Assembly (NCBI RefSeq): GCF_030269685.1
Contig: NZ_BSTT01000002.1
Coordinates: 372,001-436,000, forward strand
Source: Actinomycetospora sp. NBRC 106378
GTDB lineage: Bacteria > Actinomycetota > Actinomycetes > Mycobacteriales > Pseudonocardiaceae
Length of the DNA: 64,000 nt
Reading direction: 5' to 3'
Below the pieces are notes generated by a model, which was given only the letters and a program-made list of their open reading frames with translations, did not search any database and was not told the DNA's origin. The position numbers and the translations under genes were made by a program. This document shows, piece after piece, positions 39,841 to 56,842 of the stretch (its first letter is position 1; the number at the start of each line of letters is the position of its first letter).

Positions 39841-39894
39841 GAGACGTCACCCATCGGGCTCCGGAGCCGCCGACGGCCCGATCAGTGACGTCTC
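39841..39894. repeat. 54-base hairpin repeat, copy 2
   Basis: Arms GAGACGTCAC / GTGACGTCTC are perfect, and the inner arms ATCGGGC / GCCCGAT also pair, so the sequence changes relative to copy 1 largely preserve base pairing. The last two bases overlap the stop codon of the BTAD regulator gene. It can serve as that gene's terminator. Confidence 0.7.
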
Positions 39895-42800
39895 ACGGCC
39901 CCAGCCGGCGCAGCCCGAACGGCAACGGACCCGCATCCGATTCGACGTACCGCCCGAGGGCAGCCGCCGCATCGGCCCACGGCGTCCAGCCGAGCCGCCC
40001 CGCGAGGTCGGCCGCGACCTTGAACGCCTGCCGGGCCGGCTCCGGCTCGCCCGCGGCCAGCAGCGCCAGCCCCTGGTAGGTCGAGACAGGGCCGAGGGTC
40101 CCGGCGCCGATCCCGATGATCAGGAGCGCCTCCGGGTCCGGCGGCAGCCCCGCGAGCACCTCCCGCGCGGCGCGCTCGTCGCCGAGCGCGAACGCCGCCA
40201 CCGCGGCGCAGCACAGTCCGGAGCGGTCGAAGAGCCGGTAGGGACGTCCTTCCCGACGGCGGCTCCACTCGGCCAGGTGGGTCCGCGCGGCCTCGGCGTC
40301 CCCGGCCTGGGCGGCGTCGGCGGCGGCGACGGCGGACCAGGCGGCCACGTGCGGGTAGAACTCGGCCGCGCCCGCCGGCAGCCCGTTCAACGAGGGCAAG
40401 GTGCCGGCGAGGACCCGGGTCGAGGCGAGGTGGACGCCGTAGGCGCCGAACGCGTCGGGGATGCCAAGGTCGAGGCCGCGGTCGCGGGCGCGCTCCGCCG
40501 CCGCGTCGGCCGCCTCCGCCTCGCCCCGGGCCGCGAGCAGCGTGGCCTCGACCAGCAGGCACGCCCAGATCGACCGGGAGTGCCGGTGGCGCGCGGCCGC
40601 CTCTCGCAGGCCCGTGCTGAGCGCCTCGGCGTCGTCCGTCCGCCCGGCGGCGAGCAGCGACGCGACGAGCAGCTCCTCCGCCTCCAGCCGCAGCTCCCGA
40701 TCGCCGGTCGCCACGGCGAGACCGTGGGCGCGCTCGCCGTGACGGATGCGCTCGCGGACCACGACGGGTTCGTCGGCCAGCTGGTTGCCGCGCAGCAGGG
40801 CGACCTCGGCCTGCAGGCGCGGGTCCTCCGGGCTCGCCGCGGCGAGGGCGAGCAGCTCGGGCACCGCGTCGGCCTCGGCGTCGCCGAGGAACTGCTGCTG
40901 CTCGACGATGAGGGCGCGCAGCACCCGCACCCGGTCGCGGCGGTCGAGGGGGAGGCCCCGCACCTGCTGCAGGCGGGCGAGCCGTCGGGGGCGTCCGGCG
41001 ACGGAGATGCCGACCGCGTCCGCCCCGACGGCGGCGTCCACCAGGGCGGGCACCGACGCGGCGGTGTCGGCGACGACGGCGTCGAGCACGTCGTCCGACT
41101 CGTCGATCCGCCCGAGCGCCTGCAGGACGAGACCGCGGGCGACCTGGACGGCGCACGGGTCGGACGCGGCGGAGGCGTCGCCGGCGGCGTCGAGCAGCGC
41201 GAGGGCCTCGACGAGGGCACCGCGTTCCCGCGCGGTCGTGGCGGCGGCGGCGCGTGCATCCGCGACGACACGCGGCGGCACCATGCTCGCGGCGCCGACC
41301 GCGTGCCGGAGCCGCTCGAACGGCTCGGCGTCGGCCGGGAGCTGGTCGAGCCGGGTCCGGTGGAGCTGGGCGCGCTCCGGGGCGGGCACCGGCTCTGCGG
41401 CCGCGGCCGCCGTGAGTTCGTGGCGGAAGGCGTAGCCGGCGCCGTCGGGAACGACGAGGCCGAGGTCGGCCGCGGGCCGCAGGGCCTGCAGCACCCGGCG
41501 CACCTCGAGGCCCAGCACCTCGGCGAGCGCGTCGACCGAGATCGGGGCGAGGACGGCGAGGGCCTCGAGCACCTCGCGGCAGTCGGCCGGGAGCCGGGCG
41601 AGCTGGTAGCCGAGCAGGGGCCGGAGCCGGTCGGGCACCGTCGGGCCGGACCCGTCGTCGTCCAGGGTGTCGAGCAGGGCCGCGAGGTGGAGCGGGTGGC
41701 CGGCGGAGCGGCTCCAGAGCGCGCTCGCGGCCTCGTCGTCGGGAAGTCCCCGCAGCGCGAGGAGTTCCGCGACCGCCGCCCGGTCGAGTTCCCGCACCGG
41801 GAGCTCGTGGACGCCGGGTAGCCGGGCGAGGTCGGCGCGGATCTCCTCCCACCGCGGATGGGCCACGGCGTCCGGCTCGCGGGCCGCCACCAGCACGACG
41901 ATGCCCGGGGGCAGCCCGCGGCGGGCGAGCGAGAGCAGGGTGCCGAGCGACGCGGAGTCGGCGCGGTGGGCGTCGTCGAGGGTGAGCAGCAGGGGAGCGT
42001 CGGCGGCGCGCAGGCGCAGCACGCGGTGCACGGCGCGGCCGAACTCGGGGTCGTGGGGCGGGACCGGCGTGCCGAGGTCGTGGAGGCCCTCCGACCAGCC
42101 CGTCAGCGGGGTGTCGGCCTCGTTCCAGGCGCCGGAGCCGACGACCGCTCCCCGCAGGCCCGCCTCGTCGCGCGCCGCGCGCAGGAGCGACGTCTTGCCG
42201 ATGCCGGCCTCGCCGAGGGCGAGGACGACCGCGCCGCGGTCGGGGTCGTCGAGCCGGGCCCGGACGGTCGCGAGGAGCTCGGCCCGCCCGACGACGGGTT
42301 CGTGACGGACGGGGAGGCGGCGCGGGGCGGCGAGCAGGGCCGCCTCGAGCTCCCGCAGTGCCGGTCCGGGGTCGACGCCGTGCTCGACCCGCAGCGCCCG
42401 CCGCGTCTCGGCGAAGGCGGCCAGTGCCTCGACGGTGCGCCCGAGCCGGTGCAGCGCGCGCATGGCGGCGCCGACGAGGCGTTCACGGTCGCGGTGGCTC
42501 GCGAGGTGGGGGAGGAGCGCCTCGACGGCGGCCTCCGCGTCGCCGGGGGCGTCGCGCTCGAGACGGGCGTCGGCGAGCCGTTCCAGGACGCGCAGGAAGC
42601 GTTCGTGGGCCTGGACCGACGCGGTGCCGAGCCGCTCCGAGGGCAGGCACCCGGGGAACGGCTCGCCCCACAGCTCAAGGGCGCGTTCGGCCGCGTCGAT
42701 GGTCGTGTCGTCGCCGTCGGGGTCGAGCGCATCGGCGGCCGCCCGGAGGAAACGGACGAGGTCGACCTCGTCGTCGTCGAGGTGCAGGACGTACCCGCCG

Positions 42801-43066
42801 GCCGAGGAGACGAGCGCCGTGGGCGCGTCGGTGAACCGCTTCCGCAGGCGGGTGACCAGGACCTGCAGCGCGGCGGCCGGGCGGCGTGGCAGATCGGTGC
42901 CGTAGCACCCGTCGACGAGGGTGCCGCCGGAGACCGCACGGCCCGGAGCGAGCGCCAGGTGCGCGAGCAACGTCCGCAGACGCACGCTACCGACGGTGAC
43001 ACCGTCGATCTCCACCGTGCCGAGTAGTACCACGCGCGGACGATCGGCTGCCGAGTTCTCGGCCAT
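39893..43066 (-). CDS. BTAD/SARP-like regulator with ATPase and helical repeats
   Basis: A 1057-residue AfsR/LuxR-MalT-like (STAND) regulator. Residues 1-90 are an OmpR-type winged helix (VEIDGVTVGSVRLRTLLAHLALAPGRAVSGGTLVDGCYG). Residues about 100-245 form the bacterial transcriptional activation domain (BTAD). Residues 258-500 form an AAA/STAND ATPase with Walker A GEAGIGKTS (285-293) and Walker B LLLTLDDAHRAD. The remaining half is TPR-like helical repeat. Such regulators switch on secondary metabolism or neighbouring genes after ligand binding. It diverges from the papain-like gene across 85 bases that contain the palindrome TTCAC-N5-GTGAA. Confidence 0.88.
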   Translation of the reverse strand: MAENSAADRPRVVLLGTVEIDGVTVGSVRLRTLLAHLALAPGRAVSGGTLVDGCYGTDLPRRPAAALQVLVTRLRKRFTDAPTALVSSAGGYVLHLDDDEVDLVRFLRAAADALDPDGDDTTIDAAERALELWGEPFPGCLPSERLGTASVQAHERFLRVLERLADARLERDAPGDAEAAVEALLPHLASHRDRERLVGAAMRALHRLGRTVEALAAFAETRRALRVEHGVDPGPALRELEAALLAAPRRLPVRHEPVVGRAELLATVRARLDDPDRGAVVLALGEAGIGKTSLLRAARDEAGLRGAVVGSGAWNEADTPLTGWSEGLHDLGTPVPPHDPEFGRAVHRVLRLRAADAPLLLTLDDAHRADSASLGTLLSLARRGLPPGIVVLVAAREPDAVAHPRWEEIRADLARLPGVHELPVRELDRAAVAELLALRGLPDDEAASALWSRSAGHPLHLAALLDTLDDDGSGPTVPDRLRPLLGYQLARLPADCREVLEALAVLAPISVDALAEVLGLEVRRVLQALRPAADLGLVVPDGAGYAFRHELTAAAAAEPVPAPERAQLHRTRLDQLPADAEPFERLRHAVGAASMVPPRVVADARAAAATTARERGALVEALALLDAAGDASAASDPCAVQVARGLVLQALGRIDESDDVLDAVVADTAASVPALVDAAVGADAVGISVAGRPRRLARLQQVRGLPLDRRDRVRVLRALIVEQQQFLGDAEADAVPELLALAAASPEDPRLQAEVALLRGNQLADEPVVVRERIRHGERAHGLAVATGDRELRLEAEELLVASLLAAGRTDDAEALSTGLREAAARHRHSRSIWACLLVEATLLAARGEAEAADAAAERARDRGLDLGIPDAFGAYGVHLASTRVLAGTLPSLNGLPAGAAEFYPHVAAWSAVAAADAAQAGDAEAARTHLAEWSRRREGRPYRLFDRSGLCCAAVAAFALGDERAAREVLAGLPPDPEALLIIGIGAGTLGPVSTYQGLALLAAGEPEPARQAFKVAADLAGRLGWTPWADAAAALGRYVESDAGPLPFGLRRLGP

Positions 43067-43151: not shown

Positions 43152-44093
43152 GTGGACACGATCGCGACGACATCGGTCGAACCGGGCGAGATCCTGCTCG
43201 TGACGCAGCATCCGACGAACGCGCTGGCCGCGCTGATCGTCGAGCTAGACCGCTCGCCGAGCGGGTTCTCGCACGCCGGGATGGCCGACGACTACGGCAT
43301 GATCGTCAGTTCCTACCCGTACTACCAGCCCGACGACGTCCTCGACCTCGGCGGACTCCGCCACGATCCCTTCGAGCACTTCTGGGACGAGGGGCAGCGG
43401 GTCCACCGGCTGCGGTTGCCCGACGGTGTCTCGCCCGGCGGGCCGGCACGGCTGCTGCGGGACTACCCCGACGACCGGGAGGGTGCCTTCGGGTTCGCCA
43501 AGGTGGTCATCGTGGCGGCCGCCCTGCACGCGTTGCTCCCGGAGAACGTCCTCGAGCCGGAGGCGGAGTACGAGGTCGTCATGCGGGCCGTCGACGCCGG
43601 GTGGGCGTGGGCCTCCGAGGACGACTTCTACTGCGCCGAGTTCGTCGCGTACCTCTACGGCCGAGGGTTCACCCTGGGCGAGCTCCGCCCGCCGACGAAT
43701 CCCGTGATCGACGACGACGGCCCGGACGACTGCGTTCCGCTGCGGGGACCGACGGGGCTGACGCTGGCCACCATCAGGATGGGGGCCGCGTTCATGTCGC
43801 TGTTCGCGACGTCGGAGCAGCGCGAGACCCTCCGCGCGCTGAAGAGGGCCGTGTGGAGGTACGACCCGGCCTTCTTCGAGGAGAGCATCGACGTGGTGTT
43901 CGGCGACGAGCCGATCCACCACGATGCGCTCGCCCGCCGTCACGAGGCGTCCCGGCTGGAGGACGACCTGGTCCTCCCGCCCGCCCTGGTGACCCCGCGG
44001 ATGCTCGAAACGTGGGGGAGGGGCACCGACGTCTTGGCGGCTTCGACTCCGCTGCGCCCGCGAGAGGCTGATCAGGAGTTGGCCGCCGGCTGA
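43152..44093 (+). CDS. Permuted papain-like (NlpC/P60, YiiX-type) protein
   Basis: A 313-residue protein. The order His first (His41 in PSGFSHAGMADDYG), Cys later (Cys161 in DDFYCAEFVAYLYG) is that of circularly permuted NlpC/P60 hydrolases such as YiiX/YebB, which act on peptide or lipid amide bonds. N-terminal VEPGEILLVTQHP matches the family start. The last 120 residues are a helical, acidic region without known domain (LRALKRAVWRYDPAFFEESIDVVFG). The GTG at 43152 has GGGGGG seven bases before it; a GTG at 43122 is possible. Its 3' end overlaps the convergent RyR-domain gene by 22 bases. Confidence 0.7.
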   Translation: MDTIATTSVEPGEILLVTQHPTNALAALIVELDRSPSGFSHAGMADDYGMIVSSYPYYQPDDVLDLGGLRHDPFEHFWDEGQRVHRLRLPDGVSPGGPARLLRDYPDDREGAFGFAKVVIVAAALHALLPENVLEPEAEYEVVMRAVDAGWAWASEDDFYCAEFVAYLYGRGFTLGELRPPTNPVIDDDGPDDCVPLRGPTGLTLATIRMGAAFMSLFATSEQRETLRALKRAVWRYDPAFFEESIDVVFGDEPIHHDALARRHEASRLEDDLVLPPALVTPRMLETWGRGTDVLAASTPLRPREADQELAAG

Positions 44094-45682
44094 TCGCCCG
44101 GAGCGACCCGCACGACGCGGAGTCCGATCCGGCTGAGATGTCCTGGGATCGCGAGGACTGCGTCGCGGTCCTTCTGCCGAGCGGTCTCGTCGAGGTCGGA
44201 CCAGTCCACGAGATCGGGGTGCTTTTTCTCGACGTCGTTCCGCGCACCCGTCTTCCACCCGCGTGCTTCCTTGCTCTTGCGCCAGCGGACGTGCTCATCC
44301 TCGGCTCGGCGCTCCACTTCGCCGCCCGCGAAGGCGAACTCCTCCCCATGCCCGTCGTCGGGGACGACGACCGCGGGGAGGGTGCGGAGGTACCTCCCGA
44401 AGGCGTGGGCCTGTGCGAGGTTCTCCGTGCGCAGGTCTTCGTCGAGGTGCGACCAGGACACCGTCGACGGGTTGGTGTGCGTCGTCTCGCCTCGCGCCCG
44501 GGCCTGTTCGACGTACGACTCATGCGCGGCCCGGGCGAGCTCCTCGTACAGTCCGCGACGTAGGGCGGCGAGGGCATAGGCCTCCTCGGCCACGTTGAAC
44601 AGGTGGAGCTCCGCACCGCCGTATCCGGATGCTGCAACGTCCTGCGGGGTGATCCTCGCGCCCAGGGCGGTACTGGAGTGCGTCGCGACGACCACTCCGA
44701 CTGGCCTGCCCCTGACCTGACGCAGCACGCGGAGCCCCAACGCCACCGCCGACTCATCCCCGTCGACCACGACGACCACGAGATGCAGGCCCTCCGACGG
44801 CACGATCGAGCGGACCTCCGAGGGCGTCAGGTACGACGGCTTCATGTCACGGCCTGGACGCTCGCACCTGCGCCCGAGTTCGGTGCGCGCGGCGTCGTAC
44901 GTCTCGCCGCTACCGATGAGCACCACGTCGCCCCGAAGAGCGGTGAGGTGGCGGTCGAAGAGTCGGCGGACCGCCCGGGTGGTCGGGTCGAAGAACTCCA
45001 GGTGCACCGCCGACGGCGAGGTCAGTTCGTGCGCGGCGAGGGCGACCGCGAACTCCGGCGACCGCATCTCCAGGAAGCAGGCGGGCGCGTGAGAACCGCC
45101 GTCGAGCGCTTCGCGGACGGAAGCAGCGATGTCCACGTTCCGGGTGCTCTCGCCCGAGACGATCATGACCTCGCGCGCGGCGTCGATCCTGGCTTCCCGC
45201 AGGACCGCCGGGTCGCTCGGATCGCCCTCCACCGCGACGGCGCCCGCCACGGTCATCGCTTCCGTGCCCACGACGGCGCAGGAGGCCCCCTCGGCGACCA
45301 CGGCTCGAGCAATCAGTCGGGCCTGGGCGCCCTGACCGAGGACCACTGTGTGGTCGTGCAGCTGTCGGGAGCGCACGGCGTGGTAAGTCGAGCGGTAGAC
45401 AGTCCACGCACCGACCACCAGTCCGAACGCCGTGCTGGCGGGCGCGAGGAACCGCGCGATCTCGAGCGTCACTGGCAGGTTCGTCGCCGTCTGCAGGGGT
45501 GCGGCGTCGAGGAGGAAGAGTTGGAGCGTGTAGTAGACGAGATCGGTCGTTTTTGTGCCCGCCTGGATGGTCGAGGTGGGCAGGAACGTCGCGAAGCCCG
45601 CGTATCCGAGCAGGAATCCGGCGAGCGCCGCGAGCAGGCCGATGAGAGCCCGTGCGTTCTTGGTCAGCCAACCACCGGTCAC
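44072..45682 (-). CDS. Membrane TrkA-N/RCK-like protein with C-terminal RyR domain
   Basis: A 536-residue fusion. N-terminal membrane segments cover about 12-34, 48-62 and 73-96. A Rossmann/RCK-type domain starts at HTVVLGQGAQARLIARAVV (111-129) and continues with VEGDPSDPAVLREARIDAAREVMIVSG; a second, similar unit begins at GDVVLIGSGETYDAARTEL. The C-terminal region (about 375-515) carries ryanodine-receptor (RyR) domain features: HESYVEQARA, HVRWRKSKEARGWKTG (about 464-479) and KKHPDLVDWSDLDE. In prokaryotes RyR domains occur in predicted nucleotide-linked conflict and signalling systems. It diverges from the TIR operon across 242 bases. Role: ligand-gated channel or sensor (inference). Confidence 0.78.
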   Translation of the reverse strand: MTGGWLTKNARALIGLLAALAGFLLGYAGFATFLPTSTIQAGTKTTDLVYYTLQLFLLDAAPLQTATNLPVTLEIARFLAPASTAFGLVVGAWTVYRSTYHAVRSRQLHDHTVVLGQGAQARLIARAVVAEGASCAVVGTEAMTVAGAVAVEGDPSDPAVLREARIDAAREVMIVSGESTRNVDIAASVREALDGGSHAPACFLEMRSPEFAVALAAHELTSPSAVHLEFFDPTTRAVRRLFDRHLTALRGDVVLIGSGETYDAARTELGRRCERPGRDMKPSYLTPSEVRSIVPSEGLHLVVVVVDGDESAVALGLRVLRQVRGRPVGVVVATHSSTALGARITPQDVAASGYGGAELHLFNVAEEAYALAALRRGLYEELARAAHESYVEQARARGETTHTNPSTVSWSHLDEDLRTENLAQAHAFGRYLRTLPAVVVPDDGHGEEFAFAGGEVERRAEDEHVRWRKSKEARGWKTGARNDVEKKHPDLVDWSDLDETARQKDRDAVLAIPGHLSRIGLRVVRVAPGDQPAANS

Positions 45683-45924
45683 GAGCCCCCCTCGCCGTCC
45701 GAAGGACAGGACGATCTCCGAACGAGCGGAACGTCGCTACCGGCCGTTCGAGTGAGGTGTCGAGGCCGGCTCCAGTGCGCAACGCATATAACTCTCCGCG
45801 ACCTTCCAGAGATCGACGCCGGATCAACCCCCGTTTGGCGGATAGCACGTACTACCGACAGTTCACATGATATGTCCGTTCATGAGGACAGAGCGTCATG
45901 AACGGGGGCCTCCGGGGGGAGTGA
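45683..45924. promoter_or_regulatory. Divergent promoter region between RyR and TIR genes
   Basis: 242 bases without a gene, less GC-rich than its surroundings. It contains an AT-rich CATATAACT (45786-45794) usable as a -10 in either direction, and a perfect inverted repeat directly before the TIR gene. No clear paired -35/-10 was found. Confidence 0.5.
45876..45905. promoter_or_regulatory. Perfect inverted repeat CCGTTCATGA-N10-TCATGAACGG
   Basis: Ten-base perfect arms with a ten-base spacer, ending 19 bases before the TIR-gene ATG. Placement in the leader of the TIR/vWA/PP2C/kinase operon suggests a repressor site or an mRNA hairpin. A GGGGGGAG ribosome site follows the right arm. Confidence 0.6.
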
Positions 45925-46512
45925 ATGACGGCGAACAGCCGGTGGTGGGAGCAGGCTTTGGCCCGGCGCGGGGGCGCCCTCCCGATCCACCCCGCAGATT
46001 CCCACGCGGGGGCCGCGGTCCGGCAGCCCCCCGCGGCCGCCCCCCGGACCGCATTCCTGTCGCATTCCAGCGTCGACGGCGCCGTCGCTCGGGAGGTCTG
46101 CGCGGAACTGGAATCGCAGGGGATGTCGTGCTGGATGGCGCCGCGCGACATCGTTCCCGGGACGGAGTGGGCGTCGGCGATCGTGGACGGCATCGCCCGG
46201 TCGAGCCTGGCCGTCGTGCTGCTGTCCACGAGTTCGGTCGTCTCGCACGAGGTGCGTCGGGAGGTCGAGCGCGCCTACAAGGAGGGCAAGCCGGTCCTCC
46301 CGGTGAAGATCGACGCCTCGACGTTGGAGGGGACCCTGGCCTACTACCTGGCCGAGGTGCACTGGATCGACCTGACGCGGCGCCCCGTCCGTCGTCATCT
46401 CTCGCCGCTCGTGGCCCGGACCCGAGACCTGCTGGGAGTCGCCGCGCCCGCGGCGTACCCGGCCGTCGTGGCCGCGGAGATCCCCGAGGTCCGGCTCGAC
46501 CGGCTGTTCTGA
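45925..46512 (+). CDS. TIR-domain protein
   Basis: A 195-residue protein. After a Pro/Ala-rich head (1-40) comes a single TIR domain (41-155): box 1 RTAFLSHSSVDGAVAREVC, MAPRDIVPGTEWASAI, then the alpha-C segment LLSTSSVVSHEVRREVERA with Ser107 and Glu113 at the positions of the NADase catalytic Ser/Glu pattern. The C-terminal 40 residues are hydrophobic but not a clear membrane helix. TIR domains cleave NAD or make cyclic-ADP-ribose-type signals, or act as scaffolds. It is first in a seven-gene operon ending in vWA, PP2C and kinase genes. The role in signalling or defence is inferred. Confidence 0.88.
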   Translation: MTANSRWWEQALARRGGALPIHPADSHAGAAVRQPPAAAPRTAFLSHSSVDGAVAREVCAELESQGMSCWMAPRDIVPGTEWASAIVDGIARSSLAVVLLSTSSVVSHEVRREVERAYKEGKPVLPVKIDASTLEGTLAYYLAEVHWIDLTRRPVRRHLSPLVARTRDLLGVAAPAAYPAVVAAEIPEVRLDRLF

Positions 46513-46537
46513 CCCACTGCACATCTGGGGGAAGCAG

Positions 46538-47302
46538 ATGACCGACACCCGACCTGGGTCCCAGTTCTTCGGACACTCCTCGTCGTCCGCGCCGTCTCCG
46601 TCCGCGCCATCCTCTTCGGGAGCGTCCGCGGGTGGCGGGTGGCCGTCGCCGCCCGGACCGACCGCGACACCCGGTGCAGGGTCCCATCCCTCCGCGGCCG
46701 CGACGCTCGTGGCACCCGCCGCGCACAGCGTCGTGGACCAGGCAAAGCGGGGCGACCAGCAGGCGCTGCGCACCCTCTTCGGGCAGTTCATCCCGCCGGC
46801 CGAGGCGGTCGACGAGGCCCATTACCTCGGCGTCATGGGAATTCTGGGCTTCGGGACGCACAGCTTCGCGGCACTCACGCCCCGTCGGGTGGCGACCGTG
46901 CGGATCGGGATGTTCGGGGAGGTCAGCTACCAGGACGCCCCGTTGGAGTACCTGAACAGCACTGCGGTGTACCAGCCGTCCCGTCTCAAGCTCTACGCGT
47001 GGCCTGCTGGGTGGGTGCTCCTGATGCTGTACTTCTTCGCGCAGGGGATCGGCCTCATGGGGTACGACGTCACAGGACTCGGCTTCGCCGTCCTGGTGAT
47101 CTCGATCCTCGGGCTGCTCGCCACCCCGCTCGCGGTAAAGCTGAGCTACCGCTTCGTCAAAAGTGGTCTCGTCCTGTGGGTCCGCGAGGGACTGGCGGTC
47201 GACGTCTTCATGGACCGCCAGCGGATCACGCACGCAAACCGGTACTACCGCCTCCTGTCCGAATACCGCGACGAACGCATCCGCACCGTGGGGAACCCGT
47301 GA
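46538..47302 (+). CDS. Two-helix membrane protein with PH-like flanks
   Basis: A 254-residue protein, family not recognised. Residues 1-62 are a disordered Ser/Pro/Gly-rich region. Residues 100-145 form beta-strand-like segments (SFAALTPRRVATVRIGMFGEVSYQDAPLEYL) reminiscent of bacterial PH-like domains. Two membrane helices occupy about 155-175 and 181-201. More beta-like sequence follows (SGLVLWVREGLAVDVFMDRQ). A PH-like domain interrupted by a helical hairpin would fit (inference). It overlaps the next gene by GTGA. Confidence 0.6.
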   Translation: MTDTRPGSQFFGHSSSSAPSPSAPSSSGASAGGGWPSPPGPTATPGAGSHPSAAATLVAPAAHSVVDQAKRGDQQALRTLFGQFIPPAEAVDEAHYLGVMGILGFGTHSFAALTPRRVATVRIGMFGEVSYQDAPLEYLNSTAVYQPSRLKLYAWPAGWVLLMLYFFAQGIGLMGYDVTGLGFAVLVISILGLLATPLAVKLSYRFVKSGLVLWVREGLAVDVFMDRQRITHANRYYRLLSEYRDERIRTVGNP

Positions 47303-47778
47303 GCCCGGTCGTCCGGTCCACCGTCGGCCGTCTCGGCCCCGCTCTCTTCCCGCTCCTGGCGTTGGTGCTCGCCTTCGGCCTCACCACCCTGATCGGTTCC
47401 TTCTTCCCGGCGGCGGACCTGGCGCGTCCCCCCGTTCCGGCCCCGTCGGTCGGGACGGCGTTCGGACTCGAATCCCGCTCTCTCCCGGCCGGGTCGATCC
47501 GCTTCGTCGTCCTCGAGGGCGAGGCAGCCGCGCCCGACCCCGACGACCGGCGATGGGGACCGTGGCCGCAGGACGGGTCCCTGATCGTTCCCACCGAGCC
47601 GCTCTCGACCCACGAGGTGTGCGTGCAGGCGCCAGAGGGATGGCGGGTCGCGGTGCAGGCGCCCTCCCGTCCGGCTGCCGGGCCCACGAGCGAACGGACG
47701 AGGTGCTGGGGCCCCTGGACGTCCGGGAACCCCCTGCCGGAGCGCGTCCTCTTCACGGTCGACGGGACGGGCCGATGA
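47299..47778 (+). CDS. Single-pass membrane protein, extracytoplasmic domain
   Basis: A 159-residue protein, not recognised. One N-terminal membrane helix (GPALFPLLALVLAFGLTTLIG, about 13-33) is followed by a 120-residue region predicted outside the cytoplasm. This carries two related WGPW motifs (DDRRWGPWPQDGS and TRCWGPWTSGN) and two Cys (in THEVCVQAPEGW and RTRCWGPW) that could form a disulfide. GTGA and ATGA overlaps couple it to both neighbours, so it is probably part of the same membrane complex. Confidence 0.6.
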   Translation: MSPVVRSTVGRLGPALFPLLALVLAFGLTTLIGSFFPAADLARPPVPAPSVGTAFGLESRSLPAGSIRFVVLEGEAAAPDPDDRRWGPWPQDGSLIVPTEPLSTHEVCVQAPEGWRVAVQAPSRPAAGPTSERTRCWGPWTSGNPLPERVLFTVDGTGR

Positions 47779-48491
47779 GCGACCGGACTGCGGGAGCCAG
47801 GAGGTTTGTCCTGCTCAGCTGTGTGGCCGCGACGTTCGCCGGCGCGGTCCTCGGCCTGCTCGCCGTGCGCCCGGCGCTGATGCCCTACGTATCCCTCCTC
47901 CTGCTCGTCCTGCTCGGCTGCGCGGGTATCACCGGCTACCTCGGCATCGTGAGCCTCCACGGCACCGGGACCGGAGCCGGTCGAGGGAACCGGCCACGGT
48001 CCCCGCAGGAGCAGCATCGGCTACCGGGACCGCCCGCTCCGTCGGACGCACGGGGGCCGAAGGCGCGGGCCGGAGGTCTGTTCGAGGGCCACCCACAGGA
48101 TGTGCGTACGCCCGGCGACGACCAGCCTGCGCGACCAGGCAGCCAGACTCTGCGCCAGGTCCTGCCTGCCGGGGACGACTGGTGGAACCAGAAGAGAGCT
48201 CCGCGCTCCTCGGGCGCCCTGTCCGCCCCCACACGGCGCCCGGCCCCGCCGCCCGCACCCGCCGACCCGCGGGAGTACCTGGCCGACGCCCTCATCGCGC
48301 AGTGCCCGGCGTGCGGGTCGTTGTTCGTCGACGTCGCTCCCGTCGAGACCGGTTACGAGGTCCGGTGCCGATCGTGTGCCACCCCGATGTGGCTGTGGCG
48401 GCCGGACCGGCCGTGGCCTGGGGTGACCCTTCGGCCAGGGGCCGAACACGCCCCCGCTCCTGCCCGCGCCATCTCCCCGGAAGGGCTCTGA
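47775..48491 (+). CDS. Two-helix membrane protein with zinc ribbon
   Basis: A 238-residue protein. Two membrane helices (about 11-31 and 37-59) are followed by a 110-residue disordered Pro/Arg/Gly linker. Then comes a zinc ribbon with two CxxC pairs: Cys177/Cys180 (QCPACGS) and Cys198/Cys201 (VRCRSCATP). In TerY-P triads a zinc ribbon is usually attached to the kinase or vWA partner. Here it is on a separate membrane-bound chain immediately upstream of the vWA gene, with which it shares a TGATG stop/start. Confidence 0.65.
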   Translation: MSDRTAGARRFVLLSCVAATFAGAVLGLLAVRPALMPYVSLLLLVLLGCAGITGYLGIVSLHGTGTGAGRGNRPRSPQEQHRLPGPPAPSDARGPKARAGGLFEGHPQDVRTPGDDQPARPGSQTLRQVLPAGDDWWNQKRAPRSSGALSAPTRRPAPPPAPADPREYLADALIAQCPACGSLFVDVAPVETGYEVRCRSCATPMWLWRPDRPWPGVTLRPGAEHAPAPARAISPEGL

Positions 48492-49345
48492 TGTACCAGC
48501 GATCGATCTCCCGCCGGAACCCGGCCTGCATCGTCGTCCTCCTCGACCGGTCGGACTCCATGAAGGAGCCGTGGCGTCAATCCGGTACCTCTCTGGCCGA
48601 CGGCGCCACCCGGGCGGTGAACAGGCTGCTCCTCGATCTGTGCATGCGGTCGACGAAGGAGGTGGGCGGCGACGTCCGCGACTACTTCAACGTCATGGTC
48701 CTGGGCTACGGCGCGTGCCCGGTGGCGGGCGGCGAGGGAGTGGAGCCCGCGCTCGGCGGAGCGCTCGCCGGTCGTGGCATCGTATCCGTCCGGGACCTCG
48801 CGATGGCTCCCCTCGCGGTGCGGGACGAACCGTCCGCCGACCGGTTCTCCGGGCCGTCTCGCTCGCCCGTGTGGATCGAGTCGGTCCACGGATACCGAAC
48901 CCCGATGTGCCAGGCGATCGCCGAGGCCGGCCGGTACGTCTTCGAGTGGACGGGCGAGCACCCCGACTCGTTCCCACCGGCGATCATCAACATCACCGAC
49001 GGCTTCGTGACCGACAGCCCCTTCGACGGGGCGGACCTAGCGGAGTGGACGAAGCGCCTCACCACGATTGAGACCGATGATGGGCCGGCGCTCCTGTTCA
49101 ACGTCTTCCTGTCCCGGACCGGCGAACCCCGCTTCTTCCCGACGAGCGGTGCTCAGCTCCCCGACCCCGGACCACAGCTTTTCGAGATGAGCAGCTCGCT
49201 GCCGGACGTGATGGTCGCGAACGCCCGGGCCGCGGGCAAGACCGTGGAGCCGGGCGCCCGTGCCATGTGCTTCAACGCGGACATCGACGCCCTGACGGCC
49301 TTCCTCGAGATCGGGACGCGTGTCGCCGAGGTACGGGACCGGTGA
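48491..49345 (+). CDS. von Willebrand A domain protein, TerY-like
   Basis: A 284-residue vWA protein. The MIDAS motif DRSDS (19-23, in VVLLDRSDSM) opens the domain. The Thr/Ser position and the later Asp occur in GYRTPMCQAIAEAG and AIINITDGFVTDSPF. The features NRLLLDLCMRSTKE, DYFNVMVLGYG and SLPDVMVANARAAGK follow the TerY pattern. In Ter-type systems TerY binds metal and partners with a PP2C phosphatase and kinase, exactly the next two genes. Likely a metal-dependent scaffold or substrate of the phospho-switch (family knowledge plus inference). Confidence 0.87.
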   Translation: MYQRSISRRNPACIVVLLDRSDSMKEPWRQSGTSLADGATRAVNRLLLDLCMRSTKEVGGDVRDYFNVMVLGYGACPVAGGEGVEPALGGALAGRGIVSVRDLAMAPLAVRDEPSADRFSGPSRSPVWIESVHGYRTPMCQAIAEAGRYVFEWTGEHPDSFPPAIINITDGFVTDSPFDGADLAEWTKRLTTIETDDGPALLFNVFLSRTGEPRFFPTSGAQLPDPGPQLFEMSSSLPDVMVANARAAGKTVEPGARAMCFNADIDALTAFLEIGTRVAEVRDR

Positions 49346-49352
49346 GCCGACG

Positions 49353-50144
49353 ATGACCCTGGTCCCGCGGATGGTGGCATTCTCCGTGCCCAAAGCCGGG
49401 AACACCGACGCCGAGTGGGAGGACGGGGTTGCTACGGACCCCGGTCATCCGGGCTCCGGCCGACCGGTGCGGGTGGCGATTGCCGACGGTGCAACCGCCG
49501 CCTACGGGGCGCGTCGCTGGGCCGCCGAGCTCACCGCAGGCTTTGCGTCGCCGCGCACGGCACCCGCCGGGCTCGACCCGACAATGCTGACCCACTGGTT
49601 CGGCGACCGGCAGGCGGCGTGGAGCGAGGGCTGTCCCGCGGTGGGGACGGTGCTTGAGGAACTCAAGGTGGCCGAGGGGTCGTTCGCGACCTTCGCGGGC
49701 TGTGTCCTCGACGTCCTGGCCGGCCCGGGGGCCCGGTGGGAGGCGGCCACGCTGGGGGATTCCGTGCTCTTCCATGTGCGCTCCGGCGCCCTGGTCGCCC
49801 ACCTGCCGCCCCTCGGACCGGACGACTTCGGACGGGATCCGGCCGGTGCCTTCACTCGTCCCGACGCCCTGTTGCAGATGGCCCAGGACCTGGTGTGTGG
49901 CCGGGGTGAGCTCGTACCGGGTGACCACCTGTTCCTGGCCACGGACGCCCTCGCGCAGTGGATGGTCCGTCGCGCTGACAAGCCGGAGACGTGGGAGTTC
50001 CTGGCGCGCCTGAGCCATCCCGCCGAGTTCTCCCGCTTCGTCACCACCGAGCGCGACGCGGACGCGATGACCAACGACGACGTGACGCTGCTGCGCGTCT
50101 CACTCTCACCTACCGCTCCTCGCCGTCTGGTGGTGTGTCGATGA
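49353..50144 (+). CDS. PP2C (PPM) family protein phosphatase
   Basis: A 263-residue phosphatase: metal-binding Asp45-Gly46 in VAIADGATAAYGA, Gly135-Asp136 in AATLGDSVLFH, Asp198 in FLATDALAQW and Asn241-Asp242-Asp243 in MTNDDVTLL. All four acidic motifs expected of a PPM active site are present. It probably removes phosphates placed by the neighbouring kinase on a triad component. Coupled by ATGA to the kinase gene. Confidence 0.88.
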   Translation: MTLVPRMVAFSVPKAGNTDAEWEDGVATDPGHPGSGRPVRVAIADGATAAYGARRWAAELTAGFASPRTAPAGLDPTMLTHWFGDRQAAWSEGCPAVGTVLEELKVAEGSFATFAGCVLDVLAGPGARWEAATLGDSVLFHVRSGALVAHLPPLGPDDFGRDPAGAFTRPDALLQMAQDLVCGRGELVPGDHLFLATDALAQWMVRRADKPETWEFLARLSHPAEFSRFVTTERDADAMTNDDVTLLRVSLSPTAPRRLVVCR

Positions 50145-51469
50145 CCGAGTTCCCCACCGTCGAGGACTACCGGGTCGCGGTCCAGCATCCCGCCCGGGTG
50201 TTCTCCTCGGCCGACCTGCAGCGGGCGGAGTTCGCCGTCCACCCCGTCCTCGGGATCCCGATCCCAGCGACGGGCAGTACGGCAGCGGTCTTCCAGGCCA
50301 CCGTCGGAGGGCGCTCGCAGGCGCTGCGCTTCTTCACGCGGGAGGACCCGGCCGGCGCGTCGCGGTACGGGCGTCTGCGCGCCCATCTGGCGAACAGCGA
50401 GCTCGCGGGACAGGTGGCGCAGGCCGAGTGGCATGAAGCCTCGATCCGCATCCGGGATCGGTCGTGGCCGATCGTGCAGATGGAGTGGATCGAGGGGCGG
50501 ACGCTGGACCGCTACGTGGACCACCTGGTGGAGGAGGGCGACCGAACGGGCCTCTCCGCTCTGGCGACCGCGTGGCGGGACCTCGTGATCACCATGCAGG
50601 CCGACCACTTCGCCCACGGCGATCTTCAGCACGGCAACGTCCTCGTCGACCAGCACGGTCGGCTGCGGCTGGTCGACCTCGACGCCGTCTGGATCCCCGG
50701 GCTGGTCGGGCTCCCGGCGCCCGACGAGTCCGGCCACCCGAACTACCAGCGGCAGGACGCCCCGTGGAACGAGCACCGCGACACCTTCCCCGGCCTCGTC
50801 GTCTACCTGGCCCTTCGTATGTTGGCGCACAACCCTCAGCCTTGGGCCGTCCTACACAACGAGGACAACCTGCTCTTCACCCGCGAGGACTTCGAGGACC
50901 CCGCCCTCGGGCCGGCCTGGAAGCACCTCTCAGCCCTGCACGACCCGTCGCTCGACCGGCTCGGCGACCAATTGCGAGCGGCGTGCGACCCGTTGTGGCG
51001 GGCCGTCGACGACTTCGCGTCGATCATCGGACGCGCCGGGGACGTCGTCGGTGGTCCCGACTCGCGTCCCTGGTGGGTGCAGACGGCGGACCGTCGCGGC
51101 GAGGTTCCGGCCGGGACGACGTCGACAGGACCGCTTCGCCCACCGCCGCCAAAGGAGACGACGCAGCAGCCCACCGCGTCTCCGGCCGGTGCACGGTCCG
51201 CCTCGGATCGGCGTGCTGGCTCCGAATGGTGGGGCTGGCAGCCTGAGACCGAGATCGATGTGCCACCGCCGGACGGCCGACAGTGGAAGTCGCTGTGCCT
51301 CGCCGCGGTCATGGGGGTCGCGGCTGGTTTCATCGTTGCCGTCGTCGCGTCCCACGGCGGCGGAAACGGTGGGGAGGGCTTCGCTATCGCCTTCTTCTCG
51401 GTCGGGTTGATCACGTACCTGGTGAGCCTCGCGGTGTTCGCAACGCGGCCGCCGCCAGGCATGCCATAG
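50141..51469 (+). CDS. Membrane-anchored protein kinase of the TerY-P triad type
   Basis: A 442-residue kinase. The beta-3 lysine position appears as Arg in SQALRFF. The catalytic loop HGDLQHGNVLVD (159-170) has Asp161 and Asn166, and the Mg motif is DLD (179-181). The activation region GHPNYQRQDAPWNEHRDTF is as in TerY-P kinases, as is RLRLVDLDAVWIPGL. A Pro-rich linker (about 325-370) leads to two C-terminal membrane helices (about 385-403 and 414-433). It ends the operon; the vWA-phosphatase-kinase order matches known triads. Confidence 0.86.
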   Translation: MTEFPTVEDYRVAVQHPARVFSSADLQRAEFAVHPVLGIPIPATGSTAAVFQATVGGRSQALRFFTREDPAGASRYGRLRAHLANSELAGQVAQAEWHEASIRIRDRSWPIVQMEWIEGRTLDRYVDHLVEEGDRTGLSALATAWRDLVITMQADHFAHGDLQHGNVLVDQHGRLRLVDLDAVWIPGLVGLPAPDESGHPNYQRQDAPWNEHRDTFPGLVVYLALRMLAHNPQPWAVLHNEDNLLFTREDFEDPALGPAWKHLSALHDPSLDRLGDQLRAACDPLWRAVDDFASIIGRAGDVVGGPDSRPWWVQTADRRGEVPAGTTSTGPLRPPPPKETTQQPTASPAGARSASDRRAGSEWWGWQPETEIDVPPPDGRQWKSLCLAAVMGVAAGFIVAVVASHGGGNGGEGFAIAFFSVGLITYLVSLAVFATRPPPGMP

Positions 51470-51577
51470 GACAGGCCGCGGTACCAGAGAGGCGTCTGGC
51501 AGTGTCGTGGAATGCGTGCGCGATCCGCCGGACTTCGCGGCTCGGTGGACCTGTCGTAGGGTCCGGGCCGCCATGAC

Positions 51578-51613
51578 GAGGACGACTCGCCTCCGCGAGT
51601 GGGGTTCGTCCTC
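51578..51613. terminator. Hairpin between convergent kinase and TIR-propeller genes
   Basis: Outer arms GAGGACGA / TCGTCCTC (8 perfect pairs) enclose an inner CTCGC / GCGAG stem with loop ctcc. It lies in the 236-base gap between the convergent genes, 108 bases after the kinase stop, and may terminate both transcripts. No T-run follows. The rest of the gap shows nothing else. Confidence 0.5.
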
Positions 51614-51705
51614 AGCCGCACGGCCTGGCAAGATCTGAAGCGGGTCATCGTGGCCGAGCCGGCTGAGCGCGCTTCGAGCCGCCTCAAGCGCGCTTCAGTG
51701 TCGGC

Positions 51706-54564
51706 TCATCCGCATCCAGTGCCGTCCTGCGGCTCGACGCCCACGAACTGCATCCACTCCGCGCTCGTCAAACTCCGACCCGCCGTGGTGCAGGCGGCCC
51801 GCACCCAGTCGGTTTCACGAAGATCGAGGTCCTGGAGCATCGCGCCACCCGAGGCGACGAACATGTGATCCTGCCGGTGTCCTTCGACAATGACGGAGGC
51901 GGCGAAGGCGTTGTCACTGCCGGAGTTCGGCGCCGGCGTGGGATGACTGCCAAGGACGGCGCCCGACCGAGCGTCAATGATCTGAACGGTGCCGTCGGCG
52001 AGGAGCGCCACGACTACTGGCTGGAAGACGTCGACACCGATCCGAACGGTGGTGGGATTGAGCACCACGCTCCGTGCGGGGCTGCCGTCGAGGGGATGGC
52101 TCTCGATTTGTCCACTTCGGGTTAGAATATCTAGTTCGTCGCCCGCGAACTGCACGGTGCGGGCTGGGGTGGGCAGCACTGCAGGGAGGTTGGAGCCGGG
52201 ACCGTTGATGACCTGGACTGCTCCGTCTCCTCGGATGAAGGCCGCCGTGCCGGACACTGGATCGACATCGGCGGCGCCTGCCCCCGCGAGGTAGTCTCCT
52301 CCTGGGATGCCACCTGCGTCCGGGCGTACTGGCGGCCTATAGGAGCGGGTCACGGCGCCGTCGGTCACACGCCGCTCCTGGACCCTGCCGTTCGTGTCCA
52401 TGCTGATTACGCTCGAGCCGTCCGCCGACAATGCCGCGCTCAGGACCATGTACCCCGTACCTGGAGTCACGGCACGGGCGTCGACCACACGTGGCAGGCC
52501 CGAGGTGTCGACCTGTTCGTCCTGCTGGTTCGCGCCGCCTATGAGGAACAATCGGCGGCCGTCGGCCGACCAGACCGGGTAGCCGTAAAACCCTGAAGGA
52601 CCGGGCGGGGGCAGCGGCGTCAGCGTCTCGGTGGTGCGGTCATAGACGGCACCCTCGACGCTCCCGCGGTCGACGATGGCCATCTTTGTGTCATCGGGCG
52701 ATAGGGCCACCACAGGCGGTGCTCCGTCGTTCGGGGACACGCCGAACCGGAGCAGCCCATCGTCGGAGATGATGGTGTTGGGACCGGCGAGGTCCCACAT
52801 CGTGACTGTGTTCCCGGACGCTGAGACCAAGTGCGAGTCGTCGCCGAAGTCGAGAAGGTCCGGACTCACCGAGCTCACCCCCGTGAGGGTGATCGGTGCT
52901 GGCCCCGCCGACGTGTCGCCGCCAACTCCGACCGGGACGACGCTGATCCTGCCGCCATCGGCGAGCGCCGCCCGGTCTCCGACGGGGCTCAAGCTCAGAG
53001 CTGTCGCTCCGCGGGGCACGCCGACCGATCCTGCGAGAGTCGGAGCGGATGGGTCGGGGGGAAGGAGCTTGCTCCACGCCGAGATCTGCCCATTCTGCTC
53101 GAGCAGATAGAAGGCTCCGCCGGCTGCGCGACCGACGATGAAGCCTTCGGCGCGTGCCAGGTAGCGCGACGACCCGTAGGCCGGGCGCAGATCGGGCATG
53201 GAGAGTATTTGCCAGGCGCCTTCGATGGACTCGACTTGCACGCCGTTGTCTCCGAGGAACGTGACGCGGTCGGAGGACCGAACCGCCGTCGGCCCGGCGA
53301 TCTGCTTCCCATCCCCAGCGTAGCTCGCCAGAGGCTGTGTGCCCGTCAGCATCTTGGGGCCGCCGAGAACCACAACGGAGGTGCCGGTCGGGGAGACCGC
53401 GATGCTGAGCGGGTTGATCGCGCCCAGGACGAGCGGCGCGACCGAACCAGTGTCCGGATGCCATAAAACAGCTTGGTGCGGACCGGCGGCGGCACCGACG
53501 ACTGCGGCGTCATCGCTGACGGAGACGCTTGTGACGGCGGAGCCCACCGTCGTCGACCACCGCGCGCCGTCTGAGGTACGAATGCGAACGACCTCGCCGG
53601 AGGCGGTGCCGACGACGACCGCCGACCCGTCGCGCGATGCAGACAGGGCCGTGACCGGTGAGCTTAACGTCGCGAACCTGAGCGCGTTCGGGTTACCAGT
53701 CACTGCCTGGAAGAGTGCCGACGTGCTCTCGACCGTGGCGTCGAGCTGGTAGGCCGCGGCGGCGAGCATGTCCGATGCCTGAAGATTGGAGCTCAGATTG
53801 CTGACGGCGCTCGCGGCGAGTGATCGCGAGGCGGCCAATCTGGCCTCGTCGGTCTCCCTGCTGCGCGCATGGGACACCGCGACAACGAGGATGAGTGCGA
53901 CGACGAGGAGCAGCGCCATAGTCGTCGTACCCACCAGGGCGGTGGCGCGGGTGCGCCGCTGCCAGCGAATGTGCTCGCCTGTCAGTGCGTCTTTCTCCAC
54001 GCCCCGGATTGGTGCCGACAGAGCCGCTACAGCGTTACGCAGACGAGGGTCACGGCGGCCGCCCATCCCGACGTTGTGCATCCATCGAAGATCGACCCAC
54101 AAGGGTTCGGTCTCCAGAGCCTCCCTCAGGCTGGGAGGAAGCACGTCCGTAGCCGGAGCTATCGAGTCGGTTTCAGGGTCCCATTGCATGACCCCCTCGA
54201 TGACCACGAGCAGGAGCCGATCGGCCGACCTGTGCGCGATCCACCAGCTGACCTCCTGGTCGACCCACCGTGAGGACGCGGCAGCGGGGGAGACGAAGAC
54301 GATCAACCAGCGACTCGCCTGCAGCGCGTCCTCCAGCTTCGCCGGCAGGTCCGCGTCCGCCCCCAGATTCGTCGTGTCGCGAAAGACGCGCATTGCCCTC
54401 GCTCGATACCAGGGCTTTGCAAACCCCTCCATCTGTCGGTGGACGAGTGCCGCCACCTCGGCATCTAGGTGGCTGTAGGAGATAAAAGCCGCATAGTCGT
54501 CCAGCGCGTCGACGGATGACGAGCTCGGGTCGAGATCGGGCGAAGCGGACGCCTTGAAGTCCAT
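51706..54564 (-). CDS. TIR - transmembrane - WD40-type beta-propeller protein
   Basis: A 952-residue protein. A TIR domain covers about 20-165: AAFISYSHLDAEVAALVHRQ, FRDTTNLGADADL, then SSRWVDQEVSWW with Glu104 at the NADase position. A membrane helix lies at 208-231 (ATALVGTTTMALLLVVALIL). A helical linker (RLAASRSLAASAVSNL) leads to a WD40-like propeller (about 280-920) with blades such as PVTALSASRDGSAVVVGTASG. The end, CTTAGRSLTSAEWMQFVG, is a known tail of actinobacterial TIR/NTPase-WD40 proteins. Codon use is noticeably less GC-biased than around it, suggesting transfer. GGGGGG precedes the ATG. Confidence 0.88.
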   Translation of the reverse strand: MDFKASASPDLDPSSSSVDALDDYAAFISYSHLDAEVAALVHRQMEGFAKPWYRARAMRVFRDTTNLGADADLPAKLEDALQASRWLIVFVSPAAASSRWVDQEVSWWIAHRSADRLLLVVIEGVMQWDPETDSIAPATDVLPPSLREALETEPLWVDLRWMHNVGMGGRRDPRLRNAVAALSAPIRGVEKDALTGEHIRWQRRTRATALVGTTTMALLLVVALILVVAVSHARSRETDEARLAASRSLAASAVSNLSSNLQASDMLAAAAYQLDATVESTSALFQAVTGNPNALRFATLSSPVTALSASRDGSAVVVGTASGEVVRIRTSDGARWSTTVGSAVTSVSVSDDAAVVGAAAGPHQAVLWHPDTGSVAPLVLGAINPLSIAVSPTGTSVVVLGGPKMLTGTQPLASYAGDGKQIAGPTAVRSSDRVTFLGDNGVQVESIEGAWQILSMPDLRPAYGSSRYLARAEGFIVGRAAGGAFYLLEQNGQISAWSKLLPPDPSAPTLAGSVGVPRGATALSLSPVGDRAALADGGRISVVPVGVGGDTSAGPAPITLTGVSSVSPDLLDFGDDSHLVSASGNTVTMWDLAGPNTIISDDGLLRFGVSPNDGAPPVVALSPDDTKMAIVDRGSVEGAVYDRTTETLTPLPPPGPSGFYGYPVWSADGRRLFLIGGANQQDEQVDTSGLPRVVDARAVTPGTGYMVLSAALSADGSSVISMDTNGRVQERRVTDGAVTRSYRPPVRPDAGGIPGGDYLAGAGAADVDPVSGTAAFIRGDGAVQVINGPGSNLPAVLPTPARTVQFAGDELDILTRSGQIESHPLDGSPARSVVLNPTTVRIGVDVFQPVVVALLADGTVQIIDARSGAVLGSHPTPAPNSGSDNAFAASVIVEGHRQDHMFVASGGAMLQDLDLRETDWVRAACTTAGRSLTSAEWMQFVGVEPQDGTGCG

Positions 54565-55885: not shown

Positions 55886-56842
55886 GTGGGTATCGACGGG
55901 CGCGCGCGCCCACAGTTCGCGGGAGCCGGACCGAGAATGGTCCGGGCACGAAGAATTCTGGGACGGGTACCGCATCCGAGGAGCTCCGGGGAGAACGCGG
56001 AGAAGAACGAGATCTTCTCCGAGGGCACGGCCCGCCGATTGTTCGATCTCCCGATGCAGGTCTTCTCCACCCCGGAGGTGGCCGCACGCCGCCTGGTCGC
56101 CGCCCGGCGCCCGGACCGGGCGGTCGCGGCGTTCACCTGCAACGTCGACCACGTCATGCTGACCCGCGCCGACCGGTCGTTCCGCGAGGCCTACGGCCGC
56201 GCCGACGTCGTCACGATGGACGGGGCACCCGTCGCGCTGCTCTCCCGGTGGACCGGGACACCGGGGGCGGTGCGGGTGACCGGCGTCGACATCGTCGCGG
56301 CGCTCGGGTCGGTGGCGGCCGAGCAGCGGCTGCGGATGGCCATCGTCGGTGGGGCCCCGGGTCGTGCGGACCGGGCCGGGCGCGCCCTCGCGGACGCCAA
56401 CCCGGGCCTGCCCCGGGTGCTCGCCCTGTCGCCGTCGGCCGGCTTCCCGCTGGGCGGCCCCGAGGACGAGGCCCTCGTCCGCGCCCTGGCCGACCTCGCG
56501 CTCGACGTCGTGGTGGTCTGTTTCGGGGCGCCCAAGCAGGAGCTGTGGATCGACCTGCACCGCGACGAGCTGCCGGGCGCGGTGCTGATCGGCGCGGGCG
56601 CCACGGTCGACTACCTGTCCGGTGCGATCACCCGCGCGCCCGCGGTCTTCCAACGCACCGGCACCGAGGCGTTCTGGCGGCTCGGGACCGAGTTCCCCCG
56701 CCTCTGGCGTCGATATCTCCTCCGCGACAGCCCGTTCCTCGTGCTGTTCGCCGTGACCCTGGCTCGCCACCATGCCCGCACCGCACCCGCGGTCCCGACC
56801 CCCCGCCCCGCCGCCGACGACGTCCCGGAGGCCGCCTCATGA
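55886..56842 (+). CDS. WecG/TagA/CpsF family glycosyltransferase
   Basis: A 318-residue GT26 enzyme. Typical features are RAVAAFTCNVDHVMLTRADRSF, ADVVTMDGAPVALLSRWTG, LRMAIVGGAPGRADRAG, VVVVCFGAPKQELWID and GAVLIGAGATVDYLSG. It transfers ManNAcA or ManNAc-like sugars to polyprenyl-linked GlcNAc, an early step in EPS or teichoic-acid-like repeat assembly. GTG start with GGGGGGA five bases upstream. Overlaps the Wzz/BY-kinase gene by ATGA. The first 60 residues are poorly conserved. Confidence 0.88.
   Translation: MGIDGRARPQFAGAGPRMVRARRILGRVPHPRSSGENAEKNEIFSEGTARRLFDLPMQVFSTPEVAARRLVAARRPDRAVAAFTCNVDHVMLTRADRSFREAYGRADVVTMDGAPVALLSRWTGTPGAVRVTGVDIVAALGSVAAEQRLRMAIVGGAPGRADRAGRALADANPGLPRVLALSPSAGFPLGGPEDEALVRALADLALDVVVVCFGAPKQELWIDLHRDELPGAVLIGAGATVDYLSGAITRAPAVFQRTGTEAFWRLGTEFPRLWRRYLLRDSPFLVLFAVTLARHHARTAPAVPTPRPAADDVPEAAS

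Follow-up and report, generated by a model that had tools for sequence, protein, structure and literature searches.

The 64,000-nucleotide stretch of the soil actinomycete Actinomycetospora sp. NBRC 106378 analyzed here (contig NZ_BSTT01000002.1, positions 372,001 to 436,000; hereafter "the window," with positions counted from its first letter) carries an inserted island of nine genes (44072-54564) that seems to represent a novel variant of defense signaling already known in bacteria. We consider it reasonably probable that the island consists of two adjoining TIR units. The first (unit 1, 45925-51469) would be a membrane-anchored variant of the TerY-P phospho-switch (a vWA protein, a PP2C phosphatase and a kinase) with a TIR protein as its output, and the second (unit 2) would comprise a RyR-TrkA membrane protein and a TIR-propeller protein. 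TIR is the commonest of several partners of this membrane-type TerY-P switch, which belongs to a conserved core of five genes found across actinomycetes.

TIR Genes Recur Beside a Membrane-Anchored TerY-P Core

A search for the vWA protein in 297 genomes of the same family gave matches in 35, and the homologues form two groups, one close (50-59% identical) and the other distant (45% or less). The order vWA-PP2C-kinase is retained in essentially every triad locus examined, in both groups; the zinc-ribbon gene directly upstream of the vWA gene (gene E, usually preceded by a gene like the window's gene D for a protein with one transmembrane, or TM, helix) and a kinase with TM helices are confined to the close, or membrane, group. 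The conserved actinomycete core has five genes, for a one-TM protein, a two-TM zinc-ribbon protein, the vWA protein, PP2C and the TM-kinase, and its named carriers are Saccharothrix, Lentzea, Umezawaea, Pseudonocardia, Geodermatophilus, Modestobacter, Frankia, Parafrankia, Pseudofrankia and uncultured relatives. In a tree of vWA, PP2C and kinase together, the membrane-type and canonical groups fall apart. As to plasmid carriage, PLSDB gave just two distant vWA matches, both cyanobacterial.

In counts that depend on genome sampling and contig ends, a TIR gene adjoins the core in 16 of 26 scorable membrane-type loci vs. 1 of 28 canonical TerY-P triads (Fisher p 3e-6, with relatedness ignored), and TIR-domain counts per genome lead one to expect TIR neighbors by chance at about 0.67 of 27 loci. 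The earlier note on this DNA had made its unit depend on the genes occurring together among homologues, and the counts bear this out: a linkage of TIR to the trio in excess of chance is supported. Scoring used a TIR profile on all six frames, which a divergent TIR could escape, and six loci were excluded for short flanks; profile searches of six frames also located the TIR of locus L053 and the RyR-TrkA of locus L088.

The TIR-positive loci fall into three or four separate lineages of the same tree, and the forms, positions and orientations of the TIR differ among them. In one arrangement, a soluble TIR followed by gene C stands at the start of the operon (the window, Geodermatophilus L053, and L033/L061 from a metagenome-assembled genome, or MAG, where a dynamin-like gene is present too); the full gene order of the window, TIR-C-D-E-vWA-PP2C-kinase, is identical in Geodermatophilus africanus (L053). 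In a second arrangement, the operon starts with a TIR that has its own C-terminal TM hairpin (P. humida L043/L074, G317 L088, G561 L089), and in a third a TIR with a TM hairpin is convergent with the core and abuts the kinase gene (Saccharothrix, Lentzea, Umezawaea and relatives), at a distance of -26 to 17 bp in most of this Saccharothrix-type group. A TIR upstream of the core and in the same direction was seen in six loci of two or three lineages. Gene C is confined to loci with a soluble TIR, apart from Modestobacter L054, where the contig ends at the place expected for the TIR, and the loci examined have either a soluble TIR plus gene C or a TIR-TM-hairpin fusion, never both together; we infer that gene C serves the soluble TIR as the fused hairpin serves the other TIRs.

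Partners other than TIR stand at other cores. The core of G098, a genome of the same genus, has GAP1, DO-GTPase2 and a vWA protein as partners, and genes of these three kinds accompany the membrane core at L044, a locus of that genus; the core of a Nakamurella MAG has a dynamin-like GTPase. The core, then, is a switch whose partners can be exchanged. The Geodermatophilus kinase has a DUF6777 extension.

Two further neighborhoods were observed. At Frankia-type loci (e.g., L059:11107-14508), a gene for a protein kinase-FHA-ABC transporter fusion adjoins the core and there is no TIR. At L075:7725-9962, small genes of WXG100 type follow the membrane core, a hint of a link to ESX-type secretion.

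Composition and Active Sites of the Seven-Gene Operon

The nine genes that the earlier note had picked out are all present at the positions it gave (Table 1), and Pfam and PADLOC matches identify RyR-TrkA, the two TIR proteins and the vWA-phosphatase-kinase trio of TerY-P type. The seven genes from TIR to kinase do form, as it had proposed, one tightly coupled operon; its spacing, read from the sequence, is 25 bp from TIR to C, overlaps of 4 bases at C-D and at D-E and of 1 base at E-F, 7 bp from F to G and an overlap of 4 bases at G-H.

The kinase, D and E, and either C or the TIR itself have TM segments that indicate a membrane location, in keeping with the membrane-bound circuit that had been envisaged. 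The zinc ribbon foreseen in one of these proteins is real as well: the CxxC..CxxC of gene E, taken alone, is under the Pfam cut-off, yet it is conserved among homologues. Gene D is a candidate sensor that probably faces outside, with a likely disulfide; its structure model is of low confidence. The PH-like fold suggested for gene C was not upheld, with no Pfam family match and a weak AlphaFold2 model (predicted local distance difference test, pLDDT, 55.7).

The catalytic Glu column is filled in every aligned TIR, including both TIRs of the window. In the membrane clade, the residues of the metal ion-dependent adhesion site (MIDAS) of the vWA protein are kept in 30/30 or 31/31 of the members covering them, and the metal-binding Asp of PP2C and the HxD, N and DxD of the kinase in 31/31. 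Gene H itself keeps HxD, N and DxD and has Arg63 where the VAIK Lys is usual, an exchange found in all 31 membrane-clade kinases and in 6 of 27 canonical ones. Its match to STK_OB is restricted to the kinase half (model positions 2-267 of 562), whereas that of the canonical L046 kinase reaches 437, and its TM helices lie at 385-403 and 414-432.

Table 1. The island and its nine genes (window positions; aa, amino acids; OB, oligonucleotide/oligosaccharide-binding).
Feature	Position	Strand	Evidence or context
Whole inserted island	44072..54564		Between BTAD regulator/43152 gene pair and exopolysaccharide cluster; flanks adjacent in G042 (L153)
RyR-TrkA membrane protein, 536 aa	44072..45682	-	Pfam RyR 6.5e-10, TrkA_N 6.8e-7
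Soluble TIR protein, 195 aa, Glu113 at catalytic position	45925..46512	+	Pfam TIR_2 4.7e-23; alignment
Gene C, TM-hairpin protein	46538..47302	+	52-59% identical in L061, L053, L054
Gene D, single TM helix, with about 120 aa predicted to lie outside the membrane	47299..47778	+	Cys108 and Cys136 nearly invariant
Gene E, TM hairpin followed by a low-complexity linker and a C-terminal zinc ribbon QCPxCG...C..C...WxW...WP	47775..48491	+	Alignment of 17 sequences
Gene F, TerY-type vWA, MIDAS D19-S21-S23-T137-D170 intact	48491..49345	+	PADLOC TerY 1.2e-50
Gene G, PP2C phosphatase, metal-binding Asp intact	49353..50144	+	PADLOC PP2C 1.9e-20
Gene H, Ser/Thr-kinase-like, C-terminal TM hairpin replacing OB fold	50141..51469	+	PADLOC STK_OB 2.4e-40
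TIR-TM-beta-propeller protein, 952 aa	51706..54564	-	Pfam TIR_2 1.7e-9

The RyR-TrkA and TIR-Propeller Genes

The two genes of unit 2 flank the operon on the opposite strand and are separately transcribed. RyR-TrkA has one or more N-terminal membrane segments with a conserved YYTLQLF loop, a TrkA-N Rossmann domain and a C-terminal RyR (R12-type) domain; near full-length relatives (about 50% identical) occur, among 294 genomes of the family, in two others of the genus only, and relatives of the TIR-propeller protein in 26 of 249 family genomes. In G098, RyR-TrkA shares one operon with two TIR-propeller genes, one on either side of it, and the core of that genome is 78 kb away. Since RyR-TrkA and TIR-propeller have this operon of their own and are absent from almost all loci homologous to the core, they are outside the conserved unit, and the single circuit in which the earlier note had joined them to the switch is supported only in part. 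A functional link of RyR-TrkA to TIR and core is nevertheless possible, because a locus of another family (L088:6946-17936, about 11 kb) combines a TIR-TM gene and all five genes of the membrane core with a double SLATT protein and RyR-TrkA.

In an alignment to RyR domains, H464, W467, H488 and D505 of the window protein stand at the H, W, H, D ligand-contact positions of phage RyDEP. A 2026 preprint (PMC13232231) reports that phage RyR/R12 domains bind or cleave 2'/3' cyclic ADP-ribose (cADPR) via this set, and because the four residues match those contacts, it is plausible, judging from the sequence, that RyR-TrkA is the receptor of a TIR signal.

Two other ideas about these genes were set aside. 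A general RyR-propeller pairing is contradicted by 20 loci of TIR-propeller relatives with no RyR nearby, and gene order gives no proof that a TIR-propeller/RyR-TrkA operon received unit 1 as an insertion, because the propeller gene of the window resembles the G098 copy that lies downstream of RyR-TrkA more closely than the one upstream.

More distant RyR genes were also seen in other settings. At L140:7444-11394 and L141:8010-11341, a gene for a four-TM RyR-domain protein is followed on the same strand by a TIR gene, whose product in L140 has a PknH_C extracellular domain in addition. In five loci of a Streptomyces-like family (f32; L143, L145, L146, L148, L149), RyR-TrkA comes directly after a gene for a membrane-anchored PP2C in the same orientation, and four of these loci also have a large unclassified gene upstream, similar in sequence from one locus to another.

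Insertion of the Island

That the stretch is an insertion follows from a genome of the same genus that has the flanks together without the island: in the single-contig G042, homologues of the left flank lie 564 bases from the homologue of the exopolysaccharide gene at 56839 (identities to the window of 65% for the regulator, 43% for the 43152 gene and 35% for the 56839 gene), and none of the nine island genes lies between these joined flanks (L153). The right flank recurs in G098 (L151) at 74-88% identity with other genes on its left side, and the left flank in G075 (L152) at 69-93% identity with other genes on its right. G+C content dips to 0.68-0.72 across 44-56 kb vs. 0.72-0.79 in the rest of the window. 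The gene at 43152-44093, with no Pfam match, is kept beside the BTAD/AAA regulator (39893-43066) in both G042 and G075, genomes of the same genus; in the window it is convergent with RyR-TrkA, with an overlap of 22 bases between them.

Discussion

Unit 1 shares parts with several known systems. Stand-alone TerY-P with an OB-fold kinase (Gao et al., 2020) defends against T7-like phages (PMC7699616, PMC11090510); it likewise has a TerY-type vWA, a PP2C and a Ser/Thr kinase in one ter-free operon, and all three PADLOC models match the window. Unlike it, unit 1 has a kinase that ends in a TM hairpin where the validated stand-alone form has an OB fold (or zinc ribbon); it also has extra membrane proteins (one with a zinc ribbon) and a TIR partner, and it falls into a separate clade of the tree. 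Passages of Kaur et al. (2020; PMC7159879) describe kinase-TM, PP2C and vWA genes beside GAP1-N2 systems as an actinobacterial theme; the trio is the same, but TIR is not among the components described in those passages, and the window has TIR and gene C in place of GAP1/GTPase partners (there is no Pfam match to GAP1 or Double-GTPase genes in the island). The TerY-P linked to CoCoNuT (PMC11090510) also combines vWA, PP2C and kinase with a zinc ribbon, but there the ribbon is fused to the kinase, whereas in the window it belongs to a separate TM-anchored protein, and no CoCoNuT nuclease or GTPase genes were seen in the island.

The earlier note had made much of the missing ter genes. There are indeed none among the Pfam, NCBIfam and PADLOC matches of the nine island genes except the TerY-type vWA, and the absence of terB/C/D/E/Z from these matches sets the island apart from the Ter tellurite-resistance system. 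This lack is ordinary, however, because stand-alone TerY-P defends against phage and the kinase-TM/PP2C/vWA trio has been described beside GAP1-N2.

As in Thoeris, there are TIRs with the catalytic Glu, and unit 2 would pair one of them with a putative receptor of an ADP-ribose signal; in the window, unlike Thoeris, the candidate receptor is RyR-TrkA, the TIRs come either with a kinase/phosphatase set or as a propeller fusion, no gene of the island matches ThsA, and the TIRs match ThsB_TIR only weakly. RyR-TrkA shares with phage RyDEP (PMC13232231) a PF02026 domain with the conserved H, W, H, D ligand contacts, but its RyR domain is fused to TrkA-N and a membrane segment, and it is host-encoded beside TIR genes. 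We found no literature description of a TIR partner of the membrane-type core or of a RyR-TrkA/TIR pairing, some older key papers being outside the scope of the search.

In the mechanism that we propose, the membrane proteins D and E would sense an envelope or infection cue, and the vWA protein would hold a membrane complex whose phosphorylation state the kinase and phosphatase would control. This state would switch on the TIR at the membrane, and the active TIR would deplete nicotinamide adenine dinucleotide (NAD) or make an ADP-ribose signal, so that the infected cell is stopped. Unit 2 would be a separate pair of signal-maker and receptor, in which the TIR of the propeller protein produces a signal of cADPR type and the TrkA membrane protein binds it through its RyR domain, with a change in ion flux; the two units may engage in cross-talk. 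Taken whole, this proposal of two side-by-side TIR units is one that we hold with moderate confidence.

Several observations weigh against it. Ten of the 16 TIR-positive loci belong to one Saccharothrix/Lentzea/Umezawaea lineage, so that the sampling is clumped, and 10 of the 26 scorable cores (Frankia-type loci, P. eucalypti, G098, L057, L075, L090) have no TIR, which is therefore not obligatory for the core. Kinase H may be weak or non-catalytic, because Arg takes the usual catalytic Lys position throughout the membrane clade. As for unit 2, the pairing of RyR-TrkA with TIR-propeller is drawn from a single sister genome (G098), the RyR-TrkA of G235 stands alone, and the 20 RyR-less loci of propeller relatives count on the same side.

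The alternative that survives best, although we place it on the unlikely side, is that phage defense is not the role of the switch, which would instead act in envelope stress or cell differentiation, with the TIR as an adaptor or regulator. The TIR-less cores beside the kinase-FHA-ABC transporter in Frankia and beside WXG100-type genes elsewhere would suit such a role, as would a D protein that is probably outward-facing with its likely disulfide and host lineages that are mostly filamentous; but the distribution is patchy (all triad types together occur in 33 of 272 good family genomes), the island is inserted, conflict-type partners (TIR, GAP1/GTPase, dynamin-like, SLATT) have been swapped repeatedly, and the canonical triad is anti-phage (PMC7699616). 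Quite improbable, in our view, is the one nine-gene circuit of the earlier note, with RyR-TrkA and TIR-propeller as receptor and effector parts of the phospho-switch: it accords with the nine genes sharing one inserted island, with the compact L088 locus and with the five Streptomyces-like loci in which RyR-TrkA directly follows PP2C, yet apart from L088 no RyR is present in the other loci of the 26 scorable membrane cores, no TIR-propeller homologue is found among the displayed neighbors of other cores, the G098 operon lies far from its core, and in the window both genes are on the opposite strand with transcription of their own. That TIR and triad adjoin merely through the clustering of defense genes in islands is very unlikely, since, even with up to 40 TIR genes per genome and with RyR, SLATT and TIR genes that do cluster, TIR was found at a single canonical triad of the same family, precedes the core co-directionally in six loci, abuts the kinase in most of the Saccharothrix-type group and, in its soluble form, is tracked by gene C.

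TerY-P is a proven defense module with an opaque mechanism, and the targets of its kinase and phosphatase are unexplained in the literature examined. Under our proposal of two TIR units, a membrane-tied clade that repeatedly gains a TIR offers a concrete, testable output (NAD or an ADP-ribose signal), and the partner swaps of the core provide a natural series for comparison. RyR-TrkA, standing beside TIR genes with its cADPR contacts kept, is a small bacterial protein for testing whether RyR domains read cADPR. A bolder and, for now, doubtful possibility is that the ADP-ribose signals of neighboring TIRs, one of them under kinase/phosphatase control, are received by a bacterial RyR-like membrane protein with a TrkA channel-type scaffold; if true, bacteria would have a counterpart to the action of cADPR on animal ryanodine receptors.

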